Below are positions 6,862 to 49,552 of a stretch of 64,000 nucleotides of DNA, piece after piece (the stretch's first letter is position 1; every line of letters starts with the position of its first letter). This stretch comes from Indolivaga capnocytophagoides DSM 22835. Lineage in GTDB: Bacteria; Bacteroidota; Bacteroidia; Bacteroidales; Dysgonomonadaceae. A program made the position numbers and the translations under genes. The notes beneath the pieces are model-generated. The model was not told the origin of the DNA. It worked only from the letters and a program-made list of their open reading frames with translations, and made no database searches. The DNA lies in contig NZ_KE384529.1 in assembly GCF_000426485.1 (NCBI RefSeq), positions 186,001 through 250,000 on the forward strand, given 5' to 3'.

Positions 6862-6967
6862 AGATCTCTGAACTATTTAGTAACAGAAAGTATTTAATGA
6901 CGTATTTTAAGCGATAACAGACTGTTGCTATTATGCTTGCAAAGTCAACAAAAAGGTCTGAGACCTT
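6862..6967. repeat. Dispersed palindromic element, copy 1
   Basis: Palindrome AAGGTCTGAGACCTT at 6953-6967. The stop codon of the upstream M16 gene is built from its last bases (6966-6968). A tail runs to a degenerate second end, TAGATCTCTGAACTATTTAG, near 6861-6880, 17 bp before the ATG of the next M16 gene. The tail, read on the minus strand, is clearly homologous to the copy at 12618-12752: shared AAGCATAA.AGCAA and CATTAAATACTT segments. Confidence 0.75.
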
Positions 6968-8276
6968 ATTTTTGAGGAATATAATCTATAACTACCCGTT
7001 GATTAGGCTGTAGATACTTTTTTGCAATATCTCTTATTTCTTCTCTTGTTATAGATCTGTATATATCGATACTTGTATTTACCAACTTAGTATCTCCATA
7101 CAGCAGATAAGCCTCTGCCAGATTATGAGCTATACCTTCTGATGTTGCATTTGCATTAACCGCAGCATTTTCGAATTGATTCTGAATCTTTTGAAATTCT
7201 CTTTCAGAAATCAGATCAGTTGATATTTTTGCAACCTCTTCATCTATTACTTTCTGAACCTCTTCTGCCGTTTTTCCTGTCATTGGGATTGCATAGATAA
7301 TATATGCACTATAATCTTCTTCAGTCATATTAAACGAAGATGCTTCAAGAGCAAGCTTATCTTTATCAACCAATCGTTTATAAAGCCTTGAACTTTTTCC
7401 ATCACTCAAAACAGAAGATATCATATCCAGAACTCTTGCATCACGTTGCTTCATCGAAGGTGTACGATAAGCATTCAATAACATTGGCAACTGAATATTA
7501 GGATCTTCGGTGACTGCATTTATCTGAGTAGTTATAAGATCTTCTACATATTGATTCTTAGCAGGACGAGGTCCGCTGGGTATAGTAGCAAAGTACTCGT
7601 TAATCCATTTTTTTGTTTGTTCTTTATCAAAATCTCCGGCAATAACCAATACCGCATTACTTGGTAAATAGAATTTTTTAAAGAATGCTTTAAACTCATC
7701 TAATGTAGCAGCATTAAGATGCTCCATAGAACCGATGGGAGCCCAACGATATGGATGCTTTTTGAATAGATTACTCTTAATAGATTCCCACAGACGTCCA
7801 TAAGGAGCATTATCCATACGCATGCGTTTTTCTTCCTTTACCACTTCTCGTTGTGTATCTACTCCTATTTGATTAATAACCGGATGAAACATACGCTCCG
7901 ACTCCATCCATAATGCTAATTGCAGATTGTTAGACGGGAATGTCTCATAATAATAAGTACGGTCGTCGGTCGTATTAGCATTGCCGCTACCGCCGTTGGC
8001 ACCCATTATTTTATCCCATTGCCCACGGGCAATATTTTCCGTTCCTTCAAACAGCAGGTGCTCAAAGAAGTGAGCAAATCCCGTTCTATCGGGATTCTCA
8101 TCCTTAGCTCCCACATGATACATGACAGCTGTTGTTACTACCGGAGCTGAATTATCCTGTTGCAAGATAACATGCAATCCGTTATCCAAGGTATATTCAT
8201 CATACTCGATATGCTGAGCAAAAACTGCTGCTCCCGACATGAATATTAAACCTAAAACACTAAAAATTTTCTTCAT
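6966..8276 (-). CDS. M16-family zinc metalloprotease, catalytic subunit
   Basis: Exported peptidase of 436 residues. Signal peptide MKKIFSVLGLIFMSGAAVFA followed by Gln. The zinc-binding inverted motif HxxEH is present as HFFEHLLFEGTEN (about residues 67-79), with the downstream glutamate region EVVKEEKRMRMDN. Length fits one M16 alpha/beta pair. It sits immediately upstream of the zinc-less M16 gene, as expected for a two-subunit periplasmic enzyme (known for other bacterial M16 pairs). Its stop codon lies inside a dispersed palindrome, and another palindrome copy sits 22 bp upstream of its ATG. The substrate is unknown, probably oligopeptides. Confidence 0.93.
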   Translation of the reverse strand: MKKIFSVLGLIFMSGAAVFAQHIEYDEYTLDNGLHVILQQDNSAPVVTTAVMYHVGAKDENPDRTGFAHFFEHLLFEGTENIARGQWDKIMGANGGSGNANTTDDRTYYYETFPSNNLQLALWMESERMFHPVINQIGVDTQREVVKEEKRMRMDNAPYGRLWESIKSNLFKKHPYRWAPIGSMEHLNAATLDEFKAFFKKFYLPSNAVLVIAGDFDKEQTKKWINEYFATIPSGPRPAKNQYVEDLITTQINAVTEDPNIQLPMLLNAYRTPSMKQRDARVLDMISSVLSDGKSSRLYKRLVDKDKLALEASSFNMTEEDYSAYIIYAIPMTGKTAEEVQKVIDEEVAKISTDLISEREFQKIQNQFENAAVNANATSEGIAHNLAEAYLLYGDTKLVNTSIDIYRSITREEIRDIAKKYLQPNQRVVIDYIPQK

Positions 8277-8297
8277 ATGTAAAGTTTTATAATCTAA

Positions 8298-8345
8298 AGG
8301 TCTCAGACCTATTAATTAATAAAATTCAGTAATCTTGTCTATTTG
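8298..8345. repeat. Dispersed palindromic element, copy 2
   Basis: Core AGGTCTCAGACCT at 8298-8310, a near-perfect palindrome beginning exactly 22 bp upstream of the M16 ATG at 8276. It is followed by ATTAATTAATAAAATTC on the plus strand. The rest of the intergenic stretch (to 8457) is AT-rich and may contain a degenerate second end next to the S9 peptidase stop (ACCTTCGGTCCTA near 8449-8461). Confidence 0.7.
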
Positions 8346-8457
8346 TTTACTATATAAGATAAGAAAAACACTTTATCTCACTAATAGTCGCTAAATATTA
8401 ACAAAAATCACAAAAGATCTATTTTTTTTACCATAAGTAAACAAAAAACCTTCGGTC

Positions 8458-10995
8458 CTAATCTTTTTGGGGGTACAAGCTATTCCACCACGAAGGATCA
8501 TCTTGCAGCCATTTGGCAAACCATGCATAAATAGAATAGTTCCATTCTATACGTTTTTTATATTCACGTATCCCATGATTTTCACCCTTAACCTGAATAA
8601 ATGCAACAGGTTTACCTAATATCTTTAAAGCTGTAAACATTTGGATGCTTTCGCCAATCGGCACATTTGTATCTTCTGTTCCATGCAACAGCAATAAGGG
8701 AGTATTTACTTTATCTGCACTGAACAATGGACTTTGATTTACATATAAATCTTTGTTATTCCATGGATAGCTGCCTGCACTGGCCCCCGAACTATAGGTA
8801 TATCCCCAATAACCCTCGCCCCAGTAACTTGATAAAGCACTGATGCCGGCATGAGATACGGCCGCTGCAAAAATATCGGTACGCGTCTGCAGGTACATAG
8901 TCATAAATCCTCCGTAAGAAGCACCAATACACCCTATTTTTTTATCATTCACGAAAGAATGTTCAGATGCAAATTTCTTAGTACCTTCTATTATATCATC
9001 TGCTGTACGTATCCCCCAGGCATTGACATGGCGGGCGGCAAATTCCTGACCGTATCCGGTAGTACCGCTAGGCTGTAAAACATACACAACATATCCCATA
9101 GCTGCGTACACATGTCCGGGATATGGCGCATCAAAAGTACGGGGAGTAGGCATAGTGCCTCCATAATAATAAACAATCAAAGGATACTTTTTTGAAGAAT
9201 CGAAATTTGGCGGAAGATAAAAACGTCCGTCTATTGTAGTTCCGTCCGATGCAGTAAAACTCCAATCCTGTACTTTGCTCAGATTCAATTTTTCTAATCG
9301 CTCATTATAAGGATCCGATATCAGCGTTGCTTTATCACTTTTCAAATCAATAGTATATGCTTTGGTCGAGTTTGAAGCACTTAAACCTATATATGCAGCC
9401 CAATTACTTCCTTCCGAAAAGTCCATTGAACGAACAACATCTTCGACTAATTGCAGCTGAACGAATTGCCTGGATTTTGGATTATACCTGTAAACCCGTT
9501 GATAATCCTTATCGGTGACACCTAAATAAATCTGCCCGTCAGTATGATTCCAAACTGCATAATCGACACTTGGATCAAATGATTTGGTTATGGGATCAAC
9601 CTTTCTCGATACTAAATCCATTATAAAAGCCAATCCATTATAACTGTTAGGAATCTGTCCATCCTTCACTTTTTTGCCGATGCCGCCGAATGCTTCTCCC
9701 GAACCTTCAATGAGCAGGCTTTTTCCATCAGGAGAGAACGATGCCGAACTTACAAAATACTGATCAGACCAGATTGTATCTATCGCCAGAGTCTGCAAAT
9801 CCATCATATATAACGAACTGGAAAAGAAGGGTCTTACAGTAGGAGTATACTCAGAAGTCGAAAATAACAAATAGCGGGAATCTCGGCTCAAATCATTGAT
9901 TCTTGCTGAATTCTTACCATAGGTCAAACGTTCCTTTATTCCGGTTTGCAAATTATAACGTGAAATAAAATAGCGGGTATTCGCATCAGGCTGTCTGTTC
10001 TCGGGCGTAGATATCAGTACCAGATCACCTTTTTGAGGATCAGGAGCTTCACTTTCTGTATACAATAAAGATTTCTCATCGTATGTAAAACGAAAATTTC
10101 CGGCGGGAATATCTCTTACTAAAACCTGTTCTGCTAATGTTTCAGGATCTACTGTATACAAAATATTTTTACTGTCTGATCCATTTACATAGTAGAGTTT
10201 ATCAGAAATCGGCATCCATGCATATTTTTTGCTATTATCCAAAGCTACCCTTCTGTTCGTTCTTAAGGTAAGCAACTCTTTTTCAGAAAACGACTTCCCA
10301 TCGTTTTTTACAGTTAGATACTCCAATATAACATATTGTCCATTAGGGGATATCGAAGTATTAGTTAATCTTGTACCCTCCAATATATCCTTTATCGTTA
10401 CATTCCTTTTTTCATTTACCCCGAATGTATAATTAACCTGAGCATTTTTATCTTCCGGTTCAACCGTAACTTTTACTCCTTCAGGACTCTTATTTGTTGA
10501 TAAACTCAGGTACTTAATCATTATATTATAAGTACCGGGTTGTCCGGGAAATGTAAGTTTTACAGTTTTAGAAGATGTCAAAGTATCTTCGACTGTTACT
10601 TTTGATGTTTCTTTAACTCCATTGATATATGCCTCAAACATGCTGGGCGCAGAAATCTTCACTACGGTCTTAGCATATTTATCCACATTTAATTGAAATG
10701 AAAGCAGATGAAATCTTGCCCCTTCCTGAGCCTTACTTAAAAGAAAATAACCTGACAAATCAGACTTTAACAACTCCGTATAGGCTTGTTGATCAGGGAA
10801 AGATATAAATGTTTCGAGAAGATTTTTATTCTCAAATTTATCACCTTTAATATTTATCGAATCCATCATTACAGGATTCTTTACATCATATCCCCTTCCT
10901 GTGGAGTATAACTGCTTTAATGTTACAGTTTGCCCATTTAAGATTTGTAAAAGAAACAGGCAGCAAAATAAAAATGGGAACCTTAATTTCATCAT
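8458..10995 (-). CDS. S9-family prolyl oligopeptidase (dipeptidyl-peptidase type)
   Basis: Exported serine peptidase of 845 residues. Signal peptide ends near LQILNG with Gln next. Residues about 200-560 form the WD-like beta-propeller; the alpha/beta hydrolase domain follows. The catalytic triad is visible: Ser693 in GASYGG, Asp775 in HGTEDTNVP, and His807 in KGENHG. It probably cleaves short peptides in the periplasm. It lies in the same direction as the M16 pair but is separated from it by 181 nt holding a repeat, so co-transcription is uncertain. ATG at 10995 (a second Met follows directly). Confidence 0.92.
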   Translation of the reverse strand: MMKLRFPFLFCCLFLLQILNGQTVTLKQLYSTGRGYDVKNPVMMDSINIKGDKFENKNLLETFISFPDQQAYTELLKSDLSGYFLLSKAQEGARFHLLSFQLNVDKYAKTVVKISAPSMFEAYINGVKETSKVTVEDTLTSSKTVKLTFPGQPGTYNIMIKYLSLSTNKSPEGVKVTVEPEDKNAQVNYTFGVNEKRNVTIKDILEGTRLTNTSISPNGQYVILEYLTVKNDGKSFSEKELLTLRTNRRVALDNSKKYAWMPISDKLYYVNGSDSKNILYTVDPETLAEQVLVRDIPAGNFRFTYDEKSLLYTESEAPDPQKGDLVLISTPENRQPDANTRYFISRYNLQTGIKERLTYGKNSARINDLSRDSRYLLFSTSEYTPTVRPFFSSSLYMMDLQTLAIDTIWSDQYFVSSASFSPDGKSLLIEGSGEAFGGIGKKVKDGQIPNSYNGLAFIMDLVSRKVDPITKSFDPSVDYAVWNHTDGQIYLGVTDKDYQRVYRYNPKSRQFVQLQLVEDVVRSMDFSEGSNWAAYIGLSASNSTKAYTIDLKSDKATLISDPYNERLEKLNLSKVQDWSFTASDGTTIDGRFYLPPNFDSSKKYPLIVYYYGGTMPTPRTFDAPYPGHVYAAMGYVVYVLQPSGTTGYGQEFAARHVNAWGIRTADDIIEGTKKFASEHSFVNDKKIGCIGASYGGFMTMYLQTRTDIFAAAVSHAGISALSSYWGEGYWGYTYSSGASAGSYPWNNKDLYVNQSPLFSADKVNTPLLLLHGTEDTNVPIGESIQMFTALKILGKPVAFIQVKGENHGIREYKKRIEWNYSIYAWFAKWLQDDPSWWNSLYPQKD

Positions 10996-11117
10996 ATTAT
11001 CTGATTTTTTAATAAGTCTTTTAACAAAATTAGCAGAAAATTCATATCGAATATCCCTGCTAATTACTCTAAACTATCTTTTACAAAATCTCTTTCTGTA
11101 AAACTATTTATATATCA

Positions 11118-11561
11118 TCAAGCATTTTTTGCCTTATAAGCCATTGCATAAAAACGTATCTGTTTTATCATAGACACCAATCCGTTCGAACGAGTCGGCG
11201 ACAAATGTTCATCTAAACCTATACGGTTTACGAAATAAAGGTCTGCATTTATAATCTCATCAGGAGTACGGTTCGACAATACTTTAATAAGTAAAGCTAT
11301 AATACCCTTCACGATCACAGCATCACTTTCTGCTTTGAAATAAATACGACCGTCAATGTATTCCGCCTGAATCCACACCCGACTCTGACACCCTTGTATA
11401 AGATTAGACTCTACCCTGAATTTTTCGTCTAAGGGTTCTAACGAATTACCTAACTCTATAAGTAAAGCATATTTATCCATCCAATCATCAAAAACCGAAA
11501 AGTCTTCGATAATCTCATCCTGTACATCATTGATGCTTGGAAAGCTCAATTCTTTTTCCAT
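11118..11561 (-). CDS. sufE: SufE-family Fe-S cluster assembly protein
   Basis: Cytoplasmic sulfur-transfer partner of cysteine desulfurase SufS: it accepts persulfide sulfur and passes it to the SufBCD scaffold. 147 residues, the usual length. The persulfide cysteine is Cys58 in the conserved context NLIQGCQSRVW, followed by the typical ADSDAxIVKG-like segment (ESDAVIVKGIIALLI). No other suf gene is in the window. It begins 39 nt after the glutaminyl cyclase gene and may share its transcript. Confidence 0.93.
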   Translation of the reverse strand: MEKELSFPSINDVQDEIIEDFSVFDDWMDKYALLIELGNSLEPLDEKFRVESNLIQGCQSRVWIQAEYIDGRIYFKAESDAVIVKGIIALLIKVLSNRTPDEIINADLYFVNRIGLDEHLSPTRSNGLVSMIKQIRFYAMAYKAKNA

Positions 11562-11600
11562 TATTTATTATCTGAGGTTCCCCTCTATATCTAGTTATTG

Positions 11601-12596
11601 TTATTTTTCTTTATACACCACTTCCAACACTGTTTGCCCTACTGCTTTCAATGTTTCCTTACTGATACTGTTCATGTCATCTTTTGATGTATGCCAATAC
11701 CATCCAAATCCAGACTGTGTATTTTCGTCATTATGAATAATATCTATACTCGGGATTCTTCTGTTTTCATTCACAGGTACATGATCGTCTGTTATACCTC
11801 CACCATTTTTATCGATAAAATATTTACCATAGCCAAGATCACGGGCTGTACGCCAAACTTTTTCTACAATATCATTGGCATACTGACGAGAGATAGCTTC
11901 TTTGTAAAAAGTTGCATCGGGAGCCCCAACCATATCCAGCAGAATGCCGAAACGGGCTTTATAATCTTGTATATGTGGATTTTTAGACCAATATTGCGAA
12001 CCTAGACACCACCATTCACCTTCCGGCGCATTAGTTACAAATGAAGGAGTACCATAATCCTCTGCATCAAAAAATATAATATCAACGCCTATATTCGGAG
12101 ACTGGGTTTGTATAGAACGTGCAACTTCCAAGAGGGCTCCTACCCCACTCGCACCGTCATTAGCTCCTTGTACAGGAGATTTATGATTTTTTTCATCGGG
12201 ATCCTGATCCGAAAACGGACGTGTATCCCAATGCGCAAAGAGTAACACTCGGCTGGCATTTTCAGGATTAAAAGACCCGATAATATTTCGGGCATGTAAA
12301 ACAGTGCCATCAAATGCTTTAACATCCATACGCTGTTCAGTAACATTTGCACCAAATCTCTTCAGCTCAGCAACGAGATAGTCTCCACATGCAATGTGCT
12401 CTTTTGAGTTAGGTACACGTGGGCCAAACGCCACTTGCTTATCTACAAACGAATATGCACTATCCGAATTAAAAACAGGCGATACCTGTTGATATTTCTG
12501 TTCAGCAGATGTGTTGTTCGTTGTTGTCTTTTGTCCACACGAACAAGCCAGCAACCCTATAGTGCATCCTATTAATGATATGTTTCGTAAGCTCAT
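11601..12596 (-). CDS. Glutaminyl-peptide cyclotransferase (M28-fold glutaminyl cyclase), lipoprotein
   Basis: Membrane-anchored enzyme converting N-terminal Gln of exported proteins to pyroglutamate. 331 residues; lipobox LLAC with Cys18 as probable lipid site. M28-fold residues matching animal-type glutaminyl cyclases are visible: HWDTRP (122-127), Asp147 in GANDGASG, Glu179-Asp180 in FFDAED, Asp221 in LLDMVG, and the His of TDDHVPVN. This set (general base Glu next to a zinc ligand, and the late His) favours cyclase over aminopeptidase. In Bacteroidota such enzymes act on the Gln exposed by signal peptidase I. A palindromic repeat sits 22 bp before its ATG. Confidence 0.87.
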   Translation of the reverse strand: MSLRNISLIGCTIGLLACSCGQKTTTNNTSAEQKYQQVSPVFNSDSAYSFVDKQVAFGPRVPNSKEHIACGDYLVAELKRFGANVTEQRMDVKAFDGTVLHARNIIGSFNPENASRVLLFAHWDTRPFSDQDPDEKNHKSPVQGANDGASGVGALLEVARSIQTQSPNIGVDIIFFDAEDYGTPSFVTNAPEGEWWCLGSQYWSKNPHIQDYKARFGILLDMVGAPDATFYKEAISRQYANDIVEKVWRTARDLGYGKYFIDKNGGGITDDHVPVNENRRIPSIDIIHNDENTQSGFGWYWHTSKDDMNSISKETLKAVGQTVLEVVYKEK

Positions 12597-12617
12597 TTTA
12601 ATTTCTATATAATTATT

Positions 12618-12752
12618 AAGTCCTAGACCTATTTATTGACTATCCAAGCATAACAGCAATAGTTAGTTATCATAAAAAAATGCAACATTAAATACTTACT
12701 GTTACTTATTAATTAAGAACTGTATTTACAAAATTAACAAAAAGGGCTGAAA
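12618..12752. repeat. Dispersed palindromic element, copy 3
   Basis: Core AAGTCCTAGACCT at 12618-12630, starting 22 bp before the glutaminyl cyclase ATG. The tail TATTTATTGACTATCCAAGC and the following AACAGCAATAGTTAGTTATC match copies 1 and 8. A degenerate opposite end, AACAAAAAGGGCTGAAATTC (about 12736-12755), mirrors the right end of copy 1. The element fills most of the gap between the antiporter stop and the cyclase start. Confidence 0.75.
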
Positions 12753-12762
12753 TTCATTTATA

Positions 12763-14268
12763 TTATCTCTTTTTATTAGCGTTTACACCTGCCAACCCCA
12801 TACTTTCGTATGTTTCGGACAAAGTTTCTTCATTATTCATCATTACAAGTAATTTATCTCCGACATTTAACTCAGTCTTACCTTTCGGAATAAAGTATTT
12901 TTCGCCTCGTTTCACCAAAACAACCAAAGCATCATCCGGTAAAGGCATATTCATCAAGGCATGCCCGTTTTTCAGAGCATAATCAGTTACAACGATCTCT
13001 GTCGAAATAGAGCCTATATCTTCGGCCAAGTCTACATCAAAATCATCCAGCCTTCGCCGCTTCTTTGATGGAGCAAGCAGTCCGAGCCATTTAGCAATCT
13101 GCGTAAGAAATGTACCCTGTAAAAGAATCGATAATAAAGTAATGAAGAAAACCACATTAAAAATAAAACGGGCATGAGGTACGTGTGCTGTCAATGGATA
13201 AATAGCAAATATAATAGGCACAGCTCCACGCAAGCCTACCCACGACAAAAATACCTTATCCTTAAAACAGACCTTACGAAAAGGAGCCAGACTGATAAAT
13301 ACACTAAGCGGACGAGCTACAAATATTATAAATAGGCCTATAACAAGGGCAGGAACTGCTACCGGATACAATTCGTGTGGTTCAACCAACAATCCCAGCA
13401 TCAGGAACATAACTATTTGACTCAGCCATGATATTGCATCAAACAGTTTGAATGTAGTACGCTTAGTTATAAATTTAGAATTACCAATCACTAAACCACC
13501 TATATATATCGCAAGAAAACCATTACCTTTTATAAAGTGTGTAAACGAAAATATAAATATACAGAATGTTAATACAATTATCGGATAATAAACATCATTA
13601 TCCAATCTCATCTTATTCAACAACTTAACTGCAAATTTAGCAATAAAATATCCTGCTGCTCCACCGATAATTATCTCGGTAACAATAGATAAAGCAATCT
13701 TTAGAATATCGGGTTCACCTCCTGCCTTTATCAGGCTGATCAAAGTAATGGTAAGCATATACGCCATCGGGTCGTTGCTCCCACTTTCGCATTCGAGCGT
13801 TGGACGGAGGTTATTTTTTAACTTTACATTTTTTGATCCCAGAATAGCAAATACCGCAGCCGAATCAGTAGATGACATCACCGAAGCCAACAAGAAAGCT
13901 GTTATCAGTGAAAAACCAAGAGAAGGTAACAATTCGCCACACAACCACCATGCGAAAAATCCGGTAAATGCGGCTGTAAGAAGAACTCCGGCTGTAGCCA
14001 GTGCTACACTTTGACCTATAACCGGCTTTATTTCACTGAATTTAGTATTCAATCCGCCTGAAAACAAAATAATACACAATGCAACAGTACCGATAGCTTC
14101 TGCCACATGTAAATTATTAAACGTGATACCTATACCATCGGATCCGAAAGCCATACCAACCGCTATAAAGAGAACCAAAGCGGGAATACCTAAACGCCCC
14201 CCTATCCTACCTACCAGAATACTGATAAAAACAAGTATGGATAATACTAATAAAAAGGTTTCTAACAT
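12763..14268 (-). CDS. Cation/proton antiporter of the CPA1 NhaP2/CvrA type
   Basis: Inner-membrane K+ or Na+/H+ antiporter, 501 residues. About twelve hydrophobic segments fill residues 1-400, with the CPA1 core segments ESGSNDPMAYML (Asn-Asp pair) and LRGAVPIIFAIYP. A cytosolic TrkA_C/RCK_C-like domain follows (about 415-490: FDVDLAEDIGSISTEIVV, then ALVVLVKRGEKYFIPKG). That architecture fits NhaP2/CvrA, which adjusts potassium and cell volume. Its ATG overlaps the stop of the LD-carboxypeptidase by one base (TAATG), so translation is probably coupled. Confidence 0.9.
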   Translation of the reverse strand: MLETFLLVLSILVFISILVGRIGGRLGIPALVLFIAVGMAFGSDGIGITFNNLHVAEAIGTVALCIILFSGGLNTKFSEIKPVIGQSVALATAGVLLTAAFTGFFAWWLCGELLPSLGFSLITAFLLASVMSSTDSAAVFAILGSKNVKLKNNLRPTLECESGSNDPMAYMLTITLISLIKAGGEPDILKIALSIVTEIIIGGAAGYFIAKFAVKLLNKMRLDNDVYYPIIVLTFCIFIFSFTHFIKGNGFLAIYIGGLVIGNSKFITKRTTFKLFDAISWLSQIVMFLMLGLLVEPHELYPVAVPALVIGLFIIFVARPLSVFISLAPFRKVCFKDKVFLSWVGLRGAVPIIFAIYPLTAHVPHARFIFNVVFFITLLSILLQGTFLTQIAKWLGLLAPSKKRRRLDDFDVDLAEDIGSISTEIVVTDYALKNGHALMNMPLPDDALVVLVKRGEKYFIPKGKTELNVGDKLLVMMNNEETLSETYESMGLAGVNANKKR

Positions 14269-17523: not shown

Positions 17524-17736
17524 TCATTTTGTTTTAGATGACTCGCTTGCAGCTTTCTTAGGTTCTTCAACTTTTTTAGTAGTACTTGATTTTTTTTCTG
17601 CCTTAGCAGGTTTTGCTTCAGCTTTGGCTTCAGTTTTGGCTTTTGGAGCCGGAGCAGTTTTTGTACTTTGAGCCATAACTGCTGAAGATGCTAATAGTGC
17701 TGCGCACATTACCATAGAAAGAACTACTTTTTTCAT
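17524..17736 (-). CDS. Tiny exported Lys/Ala-rich protein (paralogue A)
   Basis: 70 residues, no recognised family. A clear signal peptide (MKKVVLSMVMCAALLASSA, cleavage near VMA with Gln next) is followed by about 47 residues of low-complexity Lys/Ala/Glu/Pro sequence (KAKTEAKAEAKPAKAEKK), strongly basic and probably disordered. The gene has its own promoter and a strong terminator, so it is a real, separately controlled unit. The signal peptide is nearly identical to that of the 71-residue neighbour at 18117-18332, indicating tandem duplication with a diverged tail. Function unknown; periplasmic or outer-membrane-associated polycation would be a guess. Confidence 0.8.
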   Translation of the reverse strand: MKKVVLSMVMCAALLASSAVMAQSTKTAPAPKAKTEAKAEAKPAKAEKKSSTTKKVEEPKKAASESSKTK

Positions 17737-17799
17737 AATTTGATGATCAAATTAAATTGTTTATTTAGTTAGCTTTTTGTCATCCCTATGATGACGATG

Positions 17800-18116: not shown

Positions 18117-18332
18117 TTATTTTTTCTTTTCGGCTTTATCAGCAGAGCAGCAAGATTTTTTCTCTGAGGTTTTCTTGCTTGCATCTTTCTTATCTGCAGA
18201 AGTACAATTTTTCTTTTCTGATGAAGTACATTCCTTTTTTGCAGGTTCAGCTGTCTTTTTATCTTGAGCCATAACTGCCGATGAAGCTAATAATGCTGTA
18301 CACATTACAACTGAAAGAACTAATTTTTTCAT
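18117..18332 (-). CDS. Tiny exported Lys/Cys-rich protein (paralogue B)
   Basis: 71 residues. Signal peptide MKKLVLSVVMCTALLASSA with VMA then Gln, differing from paralogue A at only a few positions. The mature part is Lys/Ser-rich with two similar units (ECTSSEKKNCTSADKKD and KSCCSADKAEKK), giving four Cys after the signal peptide; these could form disulfides or bind metal, which is speculation. Own promoter (18393-18422) and terminator (18052-18086). It does not match a family I recognise. Confidence 0.8.
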   Translation of the reverse strand: MKKLVLSVVMCTALLASSAVMAQDKKTAEPAKKECTSSEKKNCTSADKKDASKKTSEKKSCCSADKAEKKK

Positions 18333-18392
18333 AATGGATTTGATTTAAATATTTATTCTCTGTATAATAAACTTCTAAAAAATGAAGCTTCA

Positions 18393-32952: not shown

Positions 32953-33052
32953 AGGTATATTATTAAGTAACAATTTGTACGCAATACCTTATTTCAGGGT
33001 CACAACTATCTGCAGCCATTATACTTTCGAGACGACAAAAGCCCTGAGACCT
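32953..33052. repeat. Dispersed palindromic element, copy 4 (diverged)
   Basis: Core AGCCCTGAGACCT at 33040-33052. On the minus strand the tail resembles copy 1, including GTATAATGGCTGCAG against GCATAATAGCAACAG. A degenerate opposite end starts at 32953, 17 bp before the glpF ATG, the same distance as in copy 1 before its M16 gene. Confidence 0.55.
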
Positions 33053-33073
33053 TAAAAAAGGTTCTTATTCCGA

Positions 33074-34730: not shown

Positions 34731-34800
34731 AGGTCTGGGACCTTTTTATTTTACGATAAAACTGCTTTCAATTCTAAATACGAAGCAACGCACACAGATT
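34731..34800. repeat. Dispersed palindromic element, copy 5
   Basis: Core AGGTCTGGGACCT (34731-34743), palindromic apart from its centre, starting exactly 22 bp upstream of the glpK ATG. The tail (TTTTATTTTACGATAAAACT) is only weakly similar to the other copies. Confidence 0.6.
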
Positions 34801-39321: not shown

Positions 39322-40368
39322 ATGATAAAGCCTCTGACTTCACTTCGATTTATATTTGCCTTTATGGTCTTTATGAGCCATTCTATTCTTTTCGAAAAAA
39401 GCCAGAACCCTTTTCTATACCATTGTTTCTATGAAGGATATGCAGGTGTCAGTTTCTTTTTCGTATTAAGTGGTTTCATTCTGGCATATACTTATCAGGA
39501 AAGATTTGTCAAGAATGATATATCAAAGAGAACGTTCTATACCTATCGGCTGGCTCGTATTTATCCATTGCATATACTCACATTGCTTATCTGGGTATAT
39601 ATGAGGAAAGACCATCCCCTAAATGCTCCCTACATAACCAATCTTCTATCAAATATATCTTTAACCCAAAGTTTCTACCCGACAGACGAAATCCGCTTTA
39701 ATGCCGCAGCATGGAGCCTCTCGGATGAGATGTTTTTCTATTTGCTGTTTCCTTTTATACTTAAATGGCTGACCGGATCGCCACGTAAACTATATATAGC
39801 ATTTATAAGTGCTTCCATTCTGCTGATTGCTCTGTGCCCTATATTCGGAGGAATGAAAGACGAAGAATGGTTTTTCTACGCCTTTCCCCCCGTAAGACTA
39901 CTTGATTTTATTCTTGGTATCTTCTTGTATAATCTCTGTAGAGCCATTAAACCCGATTACCTGAAAAGACGATACATTGCAACCTTCGCCGAAGTATCTG
40001 CGATCATGGTATTTCTGCTATTTTACACCGCTGCATATTTTATACCTCAAGTATATCGCCACTCATTGTGGTACTGGATACCTATTGGATTGATTATCTC
40101 CGTTTTTTACTTTCAGTCGGGATATATATCCAAAATTCTTGCGAATAAACAATTCGTTTGGCTTGGAGAAATCAGTTTTGCGTTTTACATGTTCCACGGA
40201 ATTGTATTATGGTATGTAAAAAGAGCCTACTTTCTGTTGGGTATATCCGCCCCTAAACTTTCGGTATTCATACTTGGCATCATTATTACCATTATCATTT
40301 CGGCTGTTTCCTTCAAATATTTCGAAATACCCGCAAATAGATGGATTAAGCAGAAATTGAACAAATAA
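39322..40368 (+). CDS. Membrane acyltransferase (acyltransferase-3 / OafA type)
   Basis: 348 residues with about ten hydrophobic segments. N-terminal motif LTSLRFIFAFMVFMSHSILF contains the R and H typical of the family, then FEGYAGVSFFFVLSGFILAY-like sequence (YEGYAGVSFFFVLSGFILAY) and RLARIYPLHI. These enzymes O-acylate surface polysaccharides or other extracytoplasmic targets; no glycan synthesis gene is adjacent, so its target is unknown. Its stop codon is the first three bases of a dispersed palindrome. Confidence 0.9.
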   Translation: MIKPLTSLRFIFAFMVFMSHSILFEKSQNPFLYHCFYEGYAGVSFFFVLSGFILAYTYQERFVKNDISKRTFYTYRLARIYPLHILTLLIWVYMRKDHPLNAPYITNLLSNISLTQSFYPTDEIRFNAAAWSLSDEMFFYLLFPFILKWLTGSPRKLYIAFISASILLIALCPIFGGMKDEEWFFYAFPPVRLLDFILGIFLYNLCRAIKPDYLKRRYIATFAEVSAIMVFLLFYTAAYFIPQVYRHSLWYWIPIGLIISVFYFQSGYISKILANKQFVWLGEISFAFYMFHGIVLWYVKRAYFLLGISAPKLSVFILGIIITIIISAVSFKYFEIPANRWIKQKLNK

Positions 40369-40395
40369 GATCATAGACCTATTTATTACTTTGGT
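40366..40395. repeat. Dispersed palindromic element, copy 6 (diverged)
   Basis: TAAGATCATAGACCT (40366-40380) matches the consensus TAAGGTCTCAGACCT at 12 of 15 positions and is followed by ATTTATTAC, as in copy 3. The acyltransferase stop codon is its TAA. The rest of the 98-nt gap to the esterase stop is AT-rich. Confidence 0.55.
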
Positions 40396-40466
40396 AAATA
40401 TAACAACCTGAGCTTATTATAATTTGAAATTATATCATTATTTAGATCTGCATACTATAAAGGATT

Positions 40467-42426: not shown

Positions 42427-42480
42427 TAAGGTTTCAGACCTGTTTGAATATTTATTTTTACAATAGCAAACTTACATAAA
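42427..42480. repeat. Dispersed palindromic element, copy 7
   Basis: TAAGGTTTCAGACCT at 42427-42441 (14 of 15 to consensus), followed by GTTTGAATATTTATTTTTAC. It lies just upstream of the esterase ATG at 42401. Confidence 0.6.
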
Positions 42481-42604: not shown

Positions 42605-42678
42605 CTTGCCTACGACTTCACTTATAGATAAAAATGCCGATTACAGAGCAATCCTGGGCACTAAAAAAGTCCGAAACA

Positions 42679-45108
42679 TTATTTTCTATAAATAAGTTCC
42701 ATCACATCACCTTTCTTTAAAGAAAAACGGAAAAACCCATCACCTTTTTGTTTGAGCATGATCTGCTCGCCATTAATTACAAATAAGGGGACAAGTGCAT
42801 CATGAGCAGATTTCACAACAAAACTATTATCGGCTACAGCGGTAATCTTGGCTTTTTCAACATTACCTTCTTTCCATTGCAGATCAACATTTGCGCCACC
42901 TCTTACCGATAGACCTTTAAAAGATCCGTCTTTCCATGCTTTTGGCAATGCAGGTAAAAACTCAATATACCCTTCGTGACTTTGAACGAGCATTTCGGCA
43001 ATACCTGCACCACCAGCCTCATTTCCGTCAAAAATAAAAATATCATAAGGAGCTCCGGCTATACCTTCCGGTGAAATTGTCAGCAGGTTTTCACGTGTAA
43101 AATTCCGTTGAAGTAATACAACACTATTATAAGCATTCTCAGCATCAAACAAACGGGCATAGTTACAAATCATATTCGCCCGGCTCCATTCCACATCTTC
43201 CCATCCTTTAGCAGCTAACCTCAATTCCATAGTACGACGGGCAGCTTCGGCTAACTCAGGTGTCTGTACTGGGGTAATCTGATGAAAAGGGTACAAGCCC
43301 AGTAAATGAGTTGTATGTCTGTGATTAGGCTGAGCTTCGTCAAAATCCTCAAACCATTCCTGTAATCCGCCGTTTTTACCGATTTTATATGGAGGAAGTA
43401 ATTTTATCGCCTTCTCCATATCTTTTCTGAATGAAGCATCTATATTCAGAATTTTGGATGCCTCTAGACAAGACGTAAGAGTCTCCCAAACCAATAAACG
43501 GTCACTGGTAGGCATCATCGACAATGAAAGTTCGTCTCCCTTATATCTGAATGAATTTTCGGGTGATGTACTCGGTCCTGTCATCAGAAAACCGCTATTC
43601 GGGTCTTTCACCATATAGTCTATTAGAAACTCAGCATTACTTTTCAGCAAAGGATAAGTTGTATTACGCAGAAAATCACGGTCGAGAGTATATAAATACT
43701 CCGTCCATAAGTGAGAAGCAATCCACGAACCGGCAGTAGGAAACAATCCCCAGTTAACACCGGATCCCGAGGCTGTATATCCCCATACATTAGCGACAGT
43801 ATGAGCAGTCCACCCCCGAGTACTATATACTTCGGAAGCCGTTTTACTTCCATATTGAGCCAAATGTCCTATATAATTGAACAAAGGCTTATTCAATTCA
43901 TGCAGATTACCGACATTCGCCAGCCAATAATTCTGCTGAGTATTGATATCCAGATGATAATCATTAGTCCATCCCATATTGCAAGCCAGATTATCGTTCC
44001 ATATACCTTGAAGATTTGCAGGCAATGGCGAATCTTCGCGCGAAGAAGCAATCAACAAATAACGGGCATAATTGAAAAACAAAGCATCCAGCCCAACATC
44101 ACAGCCTCCGTCTTTTACCAATTTCCATTTTTTATCGGTAGGTAAATTTTCATTAGAGCTTGTTCCTAAAAATAAATCGACACGATCATATAAATGGGAA
44201 TGGTCGGCAACATGCGCCTGCTTTAATACATTATAATCTTTAGCCAAAGCTTTTTGTACAGTTTGCAAACAGTCGGGTTGATAATTCGGATTACTATAAT
44301 CCGTTCTCACATCAAAAACAATAGTAACCTCAGATGCTTCTTTTATAGATACCACACCGCCTTTGGCAGTAACTGTCCCTTCTTTTGCCTTTACAGCTAT
44401 TTTGCCTTTGAAGTTCACACCTCCGGTACCTTGTTTCGGAAAAGAAACCTGCCCCTCTATTTCAATACCGTTATCCCGAGCCGTAATATCTGCTTCACGC
44501 AATAAAGCAAACGATAAATTAACATTGACACTTTTCGATTTATCTGCCGAAAGATGGATAATCAAAGCATCATCGGGATTACTGCAAAGATACTCACGTA
44601 TATAACGGACATTACCGGCTTGGAACGAAACCTGATTAATAGCTGTACGTAGATCTAAAACCCGTTTATAATCAGAGATATGATTATCGGCATATATAAA
44701 CTTCATTTTCAGATCTCCCAATGGAACATGCGACCCGAACGAATGGGGTGTTCCGGCCAGATATTCCGTACCTAACCGATTTCCTTCCGCCAGATTCCCA
44801 TCAAAAAAGGCTTTTCTTATTTCTGCAAGTTTTCCTTTTTCGAGTGTACGTTGCTGTCTGGCATCATAATCGCCTGACCACATTGTAATCTCATTCAGAG
44901 CAACAGTTTCATTATATACATCACCAAAAACATTTGCTCCGATCCGACCGTTACCCAATGGCATGGATTCCATCCATTCTTTAGCAGGCTGCTCGTACCA
45001 AAGTTTATGTAAGTGGCTGTTTTCTTGCGAATCAGCCACCTGTATGCTCAAAAAAGCACTGATCAACAAAACCAGCAAAGCTTTTCTTTTCATCTTAAAA
45101 CTTCTCAT
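42679..45108 (-). CDS. GH95 alpha-L-fucosidase (possibly alpha-L-galactosidase)
   Basis: Exported glycosidase, 809 residues from ATG 45108 (45093 is an alternative giving MKRKALLVLLISAF as signal peptide). GH95 hallmarks: LWYEQPAKEWMESMPLGNGR at the start of the beta-sandwich, general acid Glu517 in GPSTSPENSF, and Asp694 in FDGNEAGGAGIAEML. The Asn pair region reads DYHLDINTQQNYW: His and Asn389 remain, but the first residue of the usual N-x-N is Asp387. It would act by inversion on alpha-1,2-linked Fuc. Fourteen nt after the preceding glycosidase gene. Confidence 0.9.
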   Translation of the reverse strand: MRSFKMKRKALLVLLISAFLSIQVADSQENSHLHKLWYEQPAKEWMESMPLGNGRIGANVFGDVYNETVALNEITMWSGDYDARQQRTLEKGKLAEIRKAFFDGNLAEGNRLGTEYLAGTPHSFGSHVPLGDLKMKFIYADNHISDYKRVLDLRTAINQVSFQAGNVRYIREYLCSNPDDALIIHLSADKSKSVNVNLSFALLREADITARDNGIEIEGQVSFPKQGTGGVNFKGKIAVKAKEGTVTAKGGVVSIKEASEVTIVFDVRTDYSNPNYQPDCLQTVQKALAKDYNVLKQAHVADHSHLYDRVDLFLGTSSNENLPTDKKWKLVKDGGCDVGLDALFFNYARYLLIASSREDSPLPANLQGIWNDNLACNMGWTNDYHLDINTQQNYWLANVGNLHELNKPLFNYIGHLAQYGSKTASEVYSTRGWTAHTVANVWGYTASGSGVNWGLFPTAGSWIASHLWTEYLYTLDRDFLRNTTYPLLKSNAEFLIDYMVKDPNSGFLMTGPSTSPENSFRYKGDELSLSMMPTSDRLLVWETLTSCLEASKILNIDASFRKDMEKAIKLLPPYKIGKNGGLQEWFEDFDEAQPNHRHTTHLLGLYPFHQITPVQTPELAEAARRTMELRLAAKGWEDVEWSRANMICNYARLFDAENAYNSVVLLQRNFTRENLLTISPEGIAGAPYDIFIFDGNEAGGAGIAEMLVQSHEGYIEFLPALPKAWKDGSFKGLSVRGGANVDLQWKEGNVEKAKITAVADNSFVVKSAHDALVPLFVINGEQIMLKQKGDGFFRFSLKKGDVMELIYRK

Positions 45109-45122
45109 ATTCAATCCCTTCC

Positions 45123-47117
45123 TTATTTCTCTATTTTCAATAGTTTCACATCTTTGGAGGGAATAGCCAATCGAGCCTTTTTGTCCAGTTGTAAACCACT
45201 CCAGAGCTCTGTCACTTTCAACACCTGATTTACATCAAGCCCTATCCTTTCATAAGGAATTGCAGAATTATTGTCATTATCAGTATAATTGAAAACAGCC
45301 AGATAAGTTATTCCTTTTTTATCTGTATATACAAACTGATTTTCAGATTTCTCGCCAACACCTTCCACCGGACGGAACGACTTACCTACAGCCACAGCAT
45401 TGACAGCTGCATTAGTTAGGTATTTTTCGGCTCTCGCTTTAACTCCTTTATCTCCGGTTTTACTGAAATCGTCTCCAGCAATAAACAATCCGGTAATAAC
45501 AGCGGATGTAATACGGGCTCTGTTTTCTCCTTCGGTTGCATCACGCAATACCACGTGATCTGCATCATTGAACTGATACACATTATCGATCCACCAACCG
45601 TATGATACGGCATTCATGGTATATTCAGTATCTTTTATTTTATTCCACGCATCGCAGGCAATACGACGAGATTGGGCATATTGAGCCGGAAAAACAGGTG
45701 AAATAGATAGATTAAGAAACATATCTCCAAAATATTTATTCAATAGCACCATACCATAATTGTATGCCTGAATTCCTGTTCTGATTTCGGGTCTGTACCA
45801 TTTGTCTCCTTCCATTGCACCGTGCCCCATGAAGTCCATCTTCACATATTCAAAGCCACAACGGCGGAATAGATCCGATGTCACTTTCATCCGTTGTGCT
45901 ATTGCCGGATGAGTAGGATCAATGGCGTATGCTCCGTCAAACTCCTGAGGTTTTCCTTGTGCATATATATAAATATCCTTGAATTTATATCCGGGAGCAT
46001 CTTCCACATCCTTTTCGGGATTTTTACCCCAATCCGTAAATGGAGTCCAGTAAATACCCGCAATCTGTCCGTTAGCCTTACATTTTTGCACAAAGGCTTT
46101 TAACTCGTCTTCCGAAAAAATATTCCAGCCCGAATCCAACCCTATATAAACCAGATTATCAGGGCTGACAAAATGATTGTTCTGCAATTTATCCTTGAAG
46201 TAATCCGATACTTCCATTACATGATTCGGACGCATGTTGAACTGCAATGCACCCCAACTGTTCCAACCGAAAGGAACCGCCTTGTTCCATTCTTTACAAG
46301 GAGCAATTATTGCATTTGCTTTTCCGTATTCATCCATTCCCGTACGCCAGTCGTCGAAAAAGCCGATCATTACTTTGGGCGATTTTATTTTTTTTCCGGT
46401 TAAAGATCCATGTACATTGGTATCACGGGTCAAGGAATCGGCAACCCCTCCGTAACAAACTAGCGAACCTATATTATTCAAATCGCCTTTAGTCATATCC
46501 ACTGCTGTTTTCCAATTATCGTGTTCTACCGATCCTATAACCAATCCGTTACGGGTCTGATTATTATAAATAGTTGTTACTTCGTAACTTCTCAGTTTAT
46601 CGAATGTAAAAGAATGAGCCTGAAATCTCACCCAAGCGTCATTATCGAAAGGTACGAATAATGCTCTGTTATCTCCTTCAGGCAGCAAATGTCCTACACG
46701 GTCGATATTCACCGGAGCCATATAATTAGACGAAACATCTTTAACTGCATCCTCTAATTGAATATCAGTAAGGATATAATCTTTATCATTATATACATAA
46801 AAAGTTTGCACCAGTCTCGGCAAGCTATCCGATGTATAAGTTATCTCGAATACCGATCCTTGCCCGAAACCATCACTGACTGCATTTGTTTTATATGCAC
46901 TTTTTGCATAATCTTTTGAGGTAATGAGTTTATCTCCTAATTTGAACGAAGCATATAAACCTTCAACAAGATGTTTCGAATTTTTCTCTATTCTTATAGA
47001 TTTGTCTTCCTCGTTATATTTCACTAACCATTTATCTGTTTTTACTGAGGATGACTGCCCGCAGGAAGACAAAAACAGAATAGCTAACAGAGTAAATAAT
47101 AAATAAGTTTTTTTCAT
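45123..47117 (-). CDS. Clan GH-D glycosidase, alpha-galactosidase-like, lipoprotein
   Basis: 664 residues; lipobox LSSC with Cys19, so probably membrane-anchored. N-terminal beta-sandwich (about 25-270), then a (beta/alpha)8 barrel beginning VPFGWNSWGALQ (284-288 GWNSW). Candidate nucleophile Asp428 in GFEYVKMDFMGHG and acid/base Asp489 in QSRRIACDAW, the arrangement of GH27/GH36 retaining enzymes. The barrel strand text LVYIGLDSGWNIFSEDELKA departs from typical GH27, so the exact family is open. Paralogous to the enzyme at 51830-54205. Likely hydrolyses terminal alpha-Gal or alpha-GalNAc. Confidence 0.75.
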   Translation of the reverse strand: MKKTYLLFTLLAILFLSSCGQSSSVKTDKWLVKYNEEDKSIRIEKNSKHLVEGLYASFKLGDKLITSKDYAKSAYKTNAVSDGFGQGSVFEITYTSDSLPRLVQTFYVYNDKDYILTDIQLEDAVKDVSSNYMAPVNIDRVGHLLPEGDNRALFVPFDNDAWVRFQAHSFTFDKLRSYEVTTIYNNQTRNGLVIGSVEHDNWKTAVDMTKGDLNNIGSLVCYGGVADSLTRDTNVHGSLTGKKIKSPKVMIGFFDDWRTGMDEYGKANAIIAPCKEWNKAVPFGWNSWGALQFNMRPNHVMEVSDYFKDKLQNNHFVSPDNLVYIGLDSGWNIFSEDELKAFVQKCKANGQIAGIYWTPFTDWGKNPEKDVEDAPGYKFKDIYIYAQGKPQEFDGAYAIDPTHPAIAQRMKVTSDLFRRCGFEYVKMDFMGHGAMEGDKWYRPEIRTGIQAYNYGMVLLNKYFGDMFLNLSISPVFPAQYAQSRRIACDAWNKIKDTEYTMNAVSYGWWIDNVYQFNDADHVVLRDATEGENRARITSAVITGLFIAGDDFSKTGDKGVKARAEKYLTNAAVNAVAVGKSFRPVEGVGEKSENQFVYTDKKGITYLAVFNYTDNDNNSAIPYERIGLDVNQVLKVTELWSGLQLDKKARLAIPSKDVKLLKIEK

Positions 47118-47170
47118 ATGTATTTTATTTATAAATGAGAACTTTACATTTATCTGTTTTTATTTTATTA

Positions 47171-49477
47171 TCAAAAATCAACCGGTCTATTTTTCGACTC
47201 TGCTCCCCATTTCGAAGGCTTATTACCCATAACAAAGTCGAGAGTACCACCGTTTACAATGTCCGAATGACGGATAAACGTATTCTGATAAGGTTTTCCA
47301 TTTAACTTTACAGACTGAATATATATCTGATCTTCCGATTTACGTGGAGCATATATAATAAAGGTCTTATCTCTCCCTACATCAATAACAGCTTTCGTAA
47401 CCAAAGGCGATCCGATAACATAAACACCATTCGCCGGATTAACGGGATAAAAGCCTAATGCACTGAATATATACCAAGCAGACATCTCGCCACAATCGTC
47501 ATTACCTGCATATCCGGCCGATGTAGTATCATACAATTCGGTGAGTATCTTATTTACATAAAATTGGGTTTTAGCAGGTTCTCCCGCATAGTTATATAAA
47601 TAGGATACATGATGGCTGGGTTCGTTGCCGTGTGCATACTGCCCGATAAATCCGGATGCATTATCATTCAATTCGCCGCTATTTTCATCATGTCCAAGAG
47701 TAAAGAAATCGTCCAGTTTTTTCACAAAGGCTTTATCTCCGCCAACCATTTCAACCAATGTACTCATATCATGCGGAACATACCAGAAATATTGCCAAGC
47801 GTTGCCTTCGGTAAACGGATAACCACCATTAGAACCGTATTTGAAGGGATCGAACGGAGTCAGCCAATTACCTTTATCGTCTTTCGATTGGAAGAACGAA
47901 GTCTCTTGATTATACAAATTCTTGTAAAATAGAGCACGTTTCATAAAATGCTTATAATCATCATTCTTTCCTAGCCTTTTAGCCAGCTGAGCCACACACC
48001 AGTCATCATAGGCAATTTCAAGAGATATAGATACCGACTGAGTTTGTATATTTTCGGGCATATATCCGTATTTTTCCCATACATCGAATAGCGAATTGGG
48101 ATGTGAGATCAAAGACGATTCTTTGACAGCCTTATATGCAGCTTCGGCATTTATACCCGGTACTCCTTTTAAGACTGCATCAACAATCACCGGAATGGCA
48201 TGATTACCGATCATGCAATAGTTTTCCTGCCCCCATAGCTGCCATATAGGCAAATAGCCGTATACTTTGTACTGACCGAGCATACTGTTCACAAAATCAG
48301 CTGTACCCTCGGGCTGTAAAATAGTATACAAAGGATGAGCCGCCCGATAAGTATCCCACAATGAAAAGGTTGAATACTGAGCTCTCTGACCGTCAGAAAC
48401 ATGAGCCTTGGTATAGTCTATCGCCGTATAATCACCATTTACGTCTGACACGATATTGGGTTGAATGTGTGTATGATATAAGGCTGTGTAAAAAATCTCT
48501 TTTTGAAGCTCTGTCGCTTCAACCTGTATTTTTTGCAGTTCTTTCTCCCATTTTTCTCCTGCCTGTTGTACAACGTAATCAAAATCCCAGTCTTTAATTT
48601 CAGCATCCAGATTCTGACGGGCATTTTCGATACTCACACCCGATAAACCGACCTTCGCCAAAAGCGGAACCGAATCCTGCTGACCGAAGTTAAATACCGA
48701 ACGCAGTCCGCTGCCATTCACAATTTTGTTATCAGTATATAATCTGTTGCCATCAAATGTGTCATTTCCTTTTATAGGCTTGGAAAAACGAATATAAAAA
48801 TATACCTTCCGCAATTTCGCCCATCCTGTAATCAGACGATAACCCGACAGTGTATACTCATCGATCTGCCTGATCTGGGAATTGATTATACGAGTAGACC
48901 AACTGCCTTTATTTAATGAATGATCCAGATCTATGATCACATTAGCTTGAGCTCCCAGAGGAAAAGCATAACGATGAAATCCTGCTCTTTCGGTAGCTGT
49001 CAGTTCCGCTTTGATATTATCTTTCAACAAATCGACCTGATAATATCCGGGGGAAGCCGATTCTTGCTTATGAGAAAATTCCGATTCATACAGGTGATCT
49101 GTCGACAGATAATTTTTATCGCCTGTACCCAAATTCTGGGTTGTAGGCATCAGCAGCACATCAAAAAATTCGGCAACACCCGTTCCACTCAGATGAGTAT
49201 GGCTGAATCCGACTATTACTTTATCGTTATAATCATAGCCCGAAGCCTGTGCCCAATCAGGTGCATGGCGGGTATCGGGACTCAGCTGAATCATCCCGAA
49301 AGGTACTACAGCCCCTGGGAAATTATTCCCCGAAAGACTCTTGTCAACAGCGCCTGTACCTATAAACGGATTGACATACGAGGTCAACTTCCCGACAGAA
49401 CTTTGACTATTCATTGCAATTGTCTGAAATAAGACAACAGCCAAACACAAGATATTTCTCACTCTTTTCAGTATCAT
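47171..49477 (-). CDS. GH92 exo-alpha-mannosidase
   Basis: 768 residues; signal peptide through about IAMNS. Typical GH92 features: YVNPFIGTGAVDKSLSGNNF and PGAVVPFGMIQLSPDT at the N-terminal domain, GFSHTHLSGTG (90-100), and the catalytic-domain block AGNDDCGEMSAWYIFSALGF with the acidic pair. GH92 enzymes are calcium-dependent inverting exo-mannosidases, mostly alpha-1,2 or alpha-1,3, removing Man from N-glycans or fungal mannan. Part of the same minus-strand operon. Confidence 0.94.
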   Translation of the reverse strand: MILKRVRNILCLAVVLFQTIAMNSQSSVGKLTSYVNPFIGTGAVDKSLSGNNFPGAVVPFGMIQLSPDTRHAPDWAQASGYDYNDKVIVGFSHTHLSGTGVAEFFDVLLMPTTQNLGTGDKNYLSTDHLYESEFSHKQESASPGYYQVDLLKDNIKAELTATERAGFHRYAFPLGAQANVIIDLDHSLNKGSWSTRIINSQIRQIDEYTLSGYRLITGWAKLRKVYFYIRFSKPIKGNDTFDGNRLYTDNKIVNGSGLRSVFNFGQQDSVPLLAKVGLSGVSIENARQNLDAEIKDWDFDYVVQQAGEKWEKELQKIQVEATELQKEIFYTALYHTHIQPNIVSDVNGDYTAIDYTKAHVSDGQRAQYSTFSLWDTYRAAHPLYTILQPEGTADFVNSMLGQYKVYGYLPIWQLWGQENYCMIGNHAIPVIVDAVLKGVPGINAEAAYKAVKESSLISHPNSLFDVWEKYGYMPENIQTQSVSISLEIAYDDWCVAQLAKRLGKNDDYKHFMKRALFYKNLYNQETSFFQSKDDKGNWLTPFDPFKYGSNGGYPFTEGNAWQYFWYVPHDMSTLVEMVGGDKAFVKKLDDFFTLGHDENSGELNDNASGFIGQYAHGNEPSHHVSYLYNYAGEPAKTQFYVNKILTELYDTTSAGYAGNDDCGEMSAWYIFSALGFYPVNPANGVYVIGSPLVTKAVIDVGRDKTFIIYAPRKSEDQIYIQSVKLNGKPYQNTFIRHSDIVNGGTLDFVMGNKPSKWGAESKNRPVDF

Positions 49478-49504
49478 ATTTCAGTAAATCATTATTGATA
49501 AGTA

Positions 49505-49552
49505 ATTATTTACGTTACACTTAGATAGTCAGCAAATAGGTCTGAGACCTTA
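49505..49552. repeat. Dispersed palindromic element, copy 8
   Basis: AGGTCTGAGACCT at 49538-49550. On the minus strand it reads TAAGGTCTCAGACCTATTTG, and its TAA is the stop codon of the GH36 gene, exactly as in copy 1. The tail CTGACTATCTAAG aligns with the tail of copy 3 (TTGACTATCCAAG). Confidence 0.75.

Follow-up and report, generated by a model that had tools for sequence, protein, structure and literature searches.

Short palindromes recur between the genes of a 64,000-nucleotide stretch of the genome of Indolivaga capnocytophagoides DSM 22835 (contig NZ_KE384529.1, positions 186,001 to 250,000; hereafter the window), and the question they raise is whether such sequences are regulatory sites, structured RNAs or the traces of mobile DNA. 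A first-pass annotation of the window had proposed a dispersed family, more like a repetitive extragenic palindromic (REP) element, a miniature inverted-repeat transposable element (MITE) or a conserved RNA element than a regulon operator. The evidence assembled here leads us to read the palindromes, with a probability of about 0.88, as the left end of a MITE family derived from IS630 (Tc1/mariner-like), with a unit of about 93 bp, imperfect terminal inverted repeats of about 24 bp, and insertion at the dinucleotide TA with its duplication. As an IS630-derived MITE family it is unusual in two respects, the very large number of copies although no driver is visible and the hairpin on one side only.

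Six Dysgonomonas genomes, the window's own (G000) and five others of which one is 62% complete, were counted within a total of 61. The anatomy of the element was established on the window plus twenty 20-kb stretches of the same genome (464 kb), these stretches being picked mostly where palindromes were listed, and a contiguous 144 kb around the window, taken without selection by palindrome density and scored with a second profile, provided a further sample.

Anatomy of the repeated unit

The element is short, non-coding and present in many copies, as befits a MITE. It is about 93 bp long, has the form TA-AGGTCTCAGACCTATTTATTG...CATTAAATACTTTCTGTTACT-TA with the palindrome as its left end, and spans TAAGGTCTCAGACC to GTTACTTA. 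Conservation drops abruptly outside both ends (46 aligned copies with flanks; 65 full copies) and the middle of the element is variable. The imperfect terminal inverted repeats, about 24 bp each, share the pattern TAAG-N11-WTTTAWTG, the left consensus end reading TAAGGTCTCAGACCTATTTATTG and the inverted right end TAAGTAACAGAAAGTATTTAATG, and the two end profiles agree in register with a column-shuffle p of about 0.001 (104 copies). The unit had earlier been estimated at 100-133 bp, which is too long. The second inverted end proposed with that estimate does exist, as a right terminus that lies at 6877 in copy 1 and at 12708 in copy 3, but not where it had been placed: AGATCTCTGAACT at 6862 and AAAAAGGGCTGAA after 12618 are both outside the element. 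A subset of elements (L033 2564, L040 9776, L042 16292, L144 4432) carries GTAAACGAGTAGACAG-like sequence in the middle.

Copy number and taxonomic spread

It is clear that the family is dispersed far beyond the window, as the genome-wide search set as a test at first pass now bears out. The window's genome of 4.38 Mb holds 515 AGGTCTSAGACCT sites with at most one mismatch, against 3 for a reversed-pattern control, and the five other Dysgonomonas genomes hold 271, 514, 0 (the 62%-complete genome), 89 and 233. Among the remaining 55 of the 61 genomes, 53 have 0-8 sites, G019 has 24 and G052 has 53, the reversed-pattern controls across all 61 ranging from 0 to 17; when the centre of the palindrome is left free, the counts become 1325 for G052 (control 5) and 27 for G019 (control 11). 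A profile tally across the 61 genomes, in which about 70 candidates were scored per genome, gives presence and not copy number. In the window itself the palindrome has 25 matches with at most three mismatches on both strands, compared with a mean of 8.9 and a maximum of 18 in shuffled sequence, and all eight cores listed earlier were found, with full or partial bodies at 6954, 12618, 33040, 40368 and 49538 and no detectable body at 8298, 34731 and 42429. The homologous tail that had been described for some copies is likewise substantiated by the element profile, which has 108 matches in the 464 kb; the same sample holds 123 palindromes with at most two mismatches (49, 44 and 30 with 0, 1 and 2 mismatches, respectively). 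The second profile finds 14-15 copies in the contiguous 144 kb, roughly 425-455 per genome when scaled.

A left-end pattern, AAGGTCNNNGACCTNTTTA, was also searched in 395 genomes of the class, a draw that excluded the other Dysgonomonas and G052. Five genomes matched, the window's own with 93 and 79 sites on the two strands and the other four with a single site each, the level reached by the reversed control. Element loci occur in named Dysgonomonas records (D. alginatilytica, D. hofstadii, D. macrotermitis, strains 511 and HGC4), and a like architecture with different palindrome centres is present in Acetofilamentum, in metagenome-assembled genomes (MAGs) of the GMC9 Bacteroidales and of Prolixibacteraceae, and in Sunxiuqinia. 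The G052/GMC9 MAG has its 1325 palindromes in 5.7 Mb, and its loci include several short forms of about 35 bp ending in GTTGCTTACGCA alongside full forms of about 105 bp. Full-text literature searches, judged mostly from their listings, yielded no paper recognised as describing the element family; the exact 13-mer is present, according to the listing, in one paper on Bordetella essential genes.

Insertion polymorphism and the target site

Comparison of orthologous gaps, the check proposed at first pass, revealed copies present at a site in one species and absent from it in another, between species only. In this scoring a gap is filled if it contains any copy, including one at another position or in another orientation. 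For the 15 copies of the 144-kb region, anchors could be set in G001, G004, G005 and G002 for 4, 5, 6 and 6 sites, respectively, of which 2, 4, 3 and 1 are empty, 2, 0, 2 and 4 filled, and 0, 1, 1 and 1 neither. The site of copy 1 is empty in G004 and G001, and G002 and G005 have a copy elsewhere in the same gap; that of copy 3 was scored empty in G004, filled in G001 and neither in G002 and G005. When 31 copies of G002 were compared with G005, with 88% identity across aligned blocks, 6 sites were filled, 6 empty, 6 neither and 13 unanchored, and some of the filled pairs, which have their flanks in common, represent one old insertion.

TA borders the left end of 49 and the right end of 56 of the 65 full copies, and both ends of 45. 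The next-outer bases lean towards T_TA_A without being fixed (46/65 and 37/65; in Acetofilamentum 19/32 and 18/32). Four empty sites, with diverged flanks, could be read by eye from 27 alignments: those at G002 59212, where the right end of the filled copy is degraded, and 171264 have a single TA, as does 97905, where the right-hand dinucleotide of the filled copy is TG, and 168507 has TG; two of the four are without change in TA. These few sites make TA the probable target, duplicated on insertion. A search for nested insertions by joined flanks among 142 copies found a single instance (L018), which could not be read at base level. IS1380 and a TTAA target were considered and rejected, there being no IS1380 match in Dysgonomonas and TA standing in non-TTAA contexts at 59212 and 171264.

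A transposase relative elsewhere in the Bacteroidales

In two distant Bacteroidales MAGs, element sequence adjoins a gene for an IS630-family transposase, the shared termini lying on one side of the gene in each. A DDE_3 search of 11 genome entries matched four; two of them, G052 and G454 (GMC9), agree in places and lengths and are apparently a single genome. The DDE_3 model scores above its cut-off at L288 (C-terminal open reading frame, ORF), L290 and L287; the NCBIfam model transpos_IS630 does so for the L288 C-terminal ORF and L287, whereas the L290 fragment and the L288 N-terminal ORF score under its cut-off. In the Acetofilamentum MAG, positions 27-89 of its 89-position element model start 4 bases beyond the transposase fragment's stop codon (E 3.4e-9), with up to 89% identity over 54 bp to single copies, and the reversed flank gives no match to the model. 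The locus lacks the 26 leftmost positions, which is the pattern to be expected if this is a parent, but not if a complete element had inserted close by. In the GMC9 MAG the right terminus of the resident elements recurs, with its beginning 156 bases upstream of the start codon of the transposase gene, and agrees with element copies at 25/25 positions (L092), 26/27 (L112 and L097), 25/26 (L121) and 24/27 (second L112 copy). On the same GMC9 contig (L288 1-1885), 89 bases of the flank preceding the transposase have a second occurrence, at 92%, elsewhere in GMC9 (L120 5847-5935), perhaps a second insertion sequence (IS) copy, a solo end or a longer deletion derivative.

Several observations weigh against this derivation. 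No DDE_3 match was found in the six Dysgonomonas genomes (one 62% complete), though the copies there are polymorphic, nor in the genomes of L106 and L110, which are probably G002 and G005 again. Neither transposase gene has both termini; in GMC9 the gene is divided between two ORFs and runs off the end of its contig, Acetofilamentum retains the C-terminal part only, and the left palindrome was not seen on any transposase-bearing copy. A third IS630, in the GMC10 MAG (L287), is without such termini. The right-hand sequence, moreover, meets the N-terminus of the transposase in GMC9 and its C-terminus in Acetofilamentum, a discrepancy which suggests either that deletion derivatives arose independently or that the two sides have similar ends. 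On the side of mobility, the remaining empty-site alignments are illegible at base level, flank statistics on the 65 copies show no convincing target duplication (4 of about 156 offset pairs with z above 3, the best 4.1), and no transposition was observed. An autonomous element was sought as left and right ends paired 300-5000 bp apart, which gave six pairs, two of them at the same place (window 8296-12708, identical to L051); none of the ORFs within the other four looked transposase-like by eye, without a family search. DDE_Tnp_1 covers IS5-type transposases; its model, PF01609, matched one of the six Dysgonomonas genomes, not the window's, and was set aside as a source.

Since none was found in six genomes, an IS630 driver has been either lost from Dysgonomonas or missed, and with no transposase found there the Dysgonomonas copies probably stem from a driver that was lost or that has been re-imported sporadically. 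We infer mobilization in trans, in which an IS630-type transposase would recognise the ends (TAAG-N11-WTTTAWTG) and move the unit by cut and paste, inserting it at TA and duplicating that dinucleotide.

Gene ends, the left hairpin and phages

Judged by a simple ORF caller, 97 of the 101 profile hits that were classified in the 464-kb sample are intergenic, so that the earlier statement that copies lie always between genes holds for all but four. In codirectional gaps the two orientations are equal (32 versus 31), and palindromes without a body show no bias there either (13 versus 12). Where an end faces a start, it tends to lie close to it, within 35 bases for 26 of 47 left and 21 of 46 right ends. 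A frame of at least 80 codons is closed by the left TAA in 14 of 96 full Dysgonomonas copies, but by the right one in only 3 of the 96 (binomial p 0.013), with 10 versus 2 of 65 in the window's genome, where the stretches were partly chosen by left-end palindromes, and 4 versus 1 of 31 in G001, G002 and G005. Stop triplets as such are about equally common at the two ends (right 81, left 75). The Acetofilamentum counts of 7 left and 1 right in 32 (p 0.07) lean to the left by construction, and because those loci were fetched with the left-end pattern, the pooled p of 0.0009 was set aside and the Dysgonomonas count alone was used.

A conserved 5-bp hairpin is found at the left end only. Its arms, AGGTC and GACCT, are paired in 94% of 335 cells, compared with 9-48% in slid controls, and 5 cells are changed on both sides; the centre varies by lineage (TCA, TTC, AAT, ACG). 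The hairpin has a folding energy of about -5 to -5.5 kcal/mol, with z between -1.1 and -2.8 relative to shuffles, and carries a T-rich tail. The palindrome of copy 1 was flagged as terminator-like in a scan of the window on both strands, and the scan therefore gives no direction for it. Insertion in a stop codon would leave TAA followed by a terminator-like hairpin, and the over-represented orientation may have been selected.

The left end with its T-rich tail also matches 8 stretches in IMG/VR; the bare 15-base pattern matches at least 120 stretches of viral contigs, probably mostly by chance, of which L153-L155 and L219 were inspected. Nine viral loci contain 10 instances of the motif. In seven of these, on six contigs (L155, L156, L157, L160, L154 and L159), a sense TAA closes a frame of 164-398 codons, the hairpin TAAGGTCnnnGACCT and a T-rich tail follow, and a new ORF starts 28-75 bases beyond the palindrome; an eighth stands directly after a TAG, and the other two are an element with a body (L153) and a probable chance match (L158). 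The profile match ends at positions 23-28 in L155, L156, L157 and L160, which are clearly bodyless, and extends weakly to positions 51-68 in L154 and L159, where a degraded body is possible. In L156 a further palindrome, 9068-9080, directly follows the stop of ORF 9081-9524. From its position on stops, the left-end hairpin of these contigs is a possible phage terminator, and co-option of the left end as a terminator appears plausible on the same sequence grounds. A more far-reaching proposal, which we hold only tentatively and think unlikely to be correct, is that the left end serves as a portable signal, a stop codon joined to a terminator hairpin (TAA-GGTC-nnn-GACC-TWTTTATT): one terminus of an IS630-derived MITE would have turned palindromic, copies in the sense orientation would have been kept where genes end, and phages would carry this 22-base cassette at the ends of genes of their own. 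Selfish insertion would in this way have become a source of lineage-wide transcript 3'-end signals. This proposal rests on the phage contigs with the left end on gene stops, and its odds are slightly lowered because two of the six show weak traces of a body.

Alternative explanations

It may be asked whether transposition need be invoked at all. A conserved structured RNA or dedicated terminator, spread by selection, would explain the paired changes in the hairpin arms and the T-rich tail, the more frequent overlap of left than of right ends with stop codons (14 versus 3), the six phage contigs with the left end on gene stops in sense, and the terminator-like flag on copy 1. Such an origin is nevertheless very unlikely for the family as a whole. 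The consensus fold of the element is only -0.19 kcal/mol, the 5-bp left hairpin is the one part that covaries, and no Rfam match at the gathering score was found in the window, so that the RNA element envisaged at first pass shrinks to that hairpin. The hairpin is itself weak and the copy 1 scan directionless. Orientation is equal in codirectional gaps, also for bodyless palindromes, many copies lie just upstream of starts, and orthologous sites are found empty. An operator of a global regulator, or a nucleoid-protein site, is the least probable of the explanations weighed here. A 13-bp intergenic palindrome, with over half of start-facing left ends close to the start, is what it would predict, but the body and right end are conserved too, right ends are similarly spaced from starts, orthologous gaps are filled species-specifically instead of being conserved at orthologous promoters, and the palindrome centre varies between lineages. 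The earlier judgement that this is no regulon operator agrees with the hundreds of copies, the lack of orientation preference and the polymorphic sites.

The high copy number, the extragenic setting and the hairpin at one end only would also suit a REP or bacterial interspersed mosaic element (BIME), moved by a REP-associated tyrosine transposase (RAYT) that cuts the palindrome as a single-strand hairpin. We consider this highly improbable. No Y1_Tnp match was found in the window's genome, G003 or G005, although the first and last of these are element-rich, and G001, G002 and G004 have one match each, in loci of about 3.2 kb that contain no element; the unit, furthermore, is 93 bp long, its two ends match each other and its target is probably TA, unlike a palindromic unit of 20-40 bp. 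The REP label in its strict sense consequently falls away, and the MITE-type element named beside it is upheld by the terminal inverted repeats, the empty orthologous sites with their probable TA and the attachment to an IS630 transposase elsewhere. L083 (G004) and L085 (G001) each have one Y1_Tnp-like gene, placed after a gene of about 320 aa and with no repeats beside it, followed in L085 by two genes that are vWA-like by eye; these Y1_Tnp-like genes are possibly domesticated.

Copies in the window

Table 1. Copies and partial copies of the element in the window
Feature	Position	Strand	Details
Copy 1, full-length element	6877..6968	-	Left palindrome 6954-6966; profile E about 1e-25
Copy 1, left TAA	6968-6966	-	Stop codon of gene 6966-8276 (-)
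Left-end palindrome, no detectable body	8298..8310	+	21 bases upstream of start of gene 6966-8276 (-), script gene model
Copy 3, full-length element	12616..12708	+	Mutated palindrome AAGTCCTAGACCT; profile hit
Full-length diverged element	32964..33054	-	Palindrome 33040-33052; profile E about 1e-10
Left-end palindrome then TTTTTATT, body not detectable	34731..34743	+	
Partial element, profile positions 3-77	40366..40440	+	Profile E 7e-11; left TAA is stop codon of gene 39322-40368 (+)
Left-end palindrome only, AGGTTTCAGACCT	42429..42441	+	
Partial element, left half	49503..49552	-	Profile E 3e-7; left TAA is stop codon of gene 49550-51754 (-)

The window also contains two 99-bp direct repeats, at 17641-17739 and 18237-18335, which are 596 bases apart and 80% identical.

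Relation to known elements and significance

Parallels with previously described elements are instructive. One is RUP (repeat unit of pneumococcus), a 107-bp repeat with terminal inverted repeats similar to those of IS630-Spn1 and 110 copies in one genome (PMC3049150); it is likewise an AT-rich repeat of about 100 bp with IS630-like termini. The present family differs from RUP in sequence, in having several-fold more copies, in the failure to find an IS630 in the host genus and in its one-sided hairpin. SPRITE, an interspersed pneumococcal repeat with AAAA/TTTT ends and without significant similarity to pneumococcal IS ends, resembles it as a terminator-shaped repeat enriched near gene 3' ends (PMC3049150), whereas the hairpin here is one end of an IS630-type element. 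ISY100, of the IS630/Tc1-mariner family, shares a TA target duplication and 24-bp inverted repeats (PMC2170065), but is autonomous, comes from Synechocystis and has another sequence. BrickBuilt, MITE239 and MITE464 of Porphyromonas gingivalis are MITE-like elements in another member of the Bacteroidales; BrickBuilt has IS5-family-like ends, target duplications of varying length and 19 copies (PMC4596501). Its terminus (GAGACC...) and the palindrome have six letters in common, probably by chance. REP elements with a RAYT have extragenic palindromes and high copy number in common with this family (PMC3733652) and differ in their units of 20-40 bp and in being often tied to a tyrosine transposase, which was not found in the window's genome.

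Reading the palindromes as ends of an IS630-derived MITE accounts for hundreds of intergenic repeats in Dysgonomonas and connects these with a related IS630 still present in other Bacteroidales. It also cautions that such palindromes are not to be read as operators or REPs. The family lends itself to studying how MITEs persist after their driver has gone and whether one end of a transposon can become a gene-end signal. If the left end is in truth a portable stop codon plus terminator, then a selfish insertion would have furnished transcript 3'-end signals throughout the lineage.

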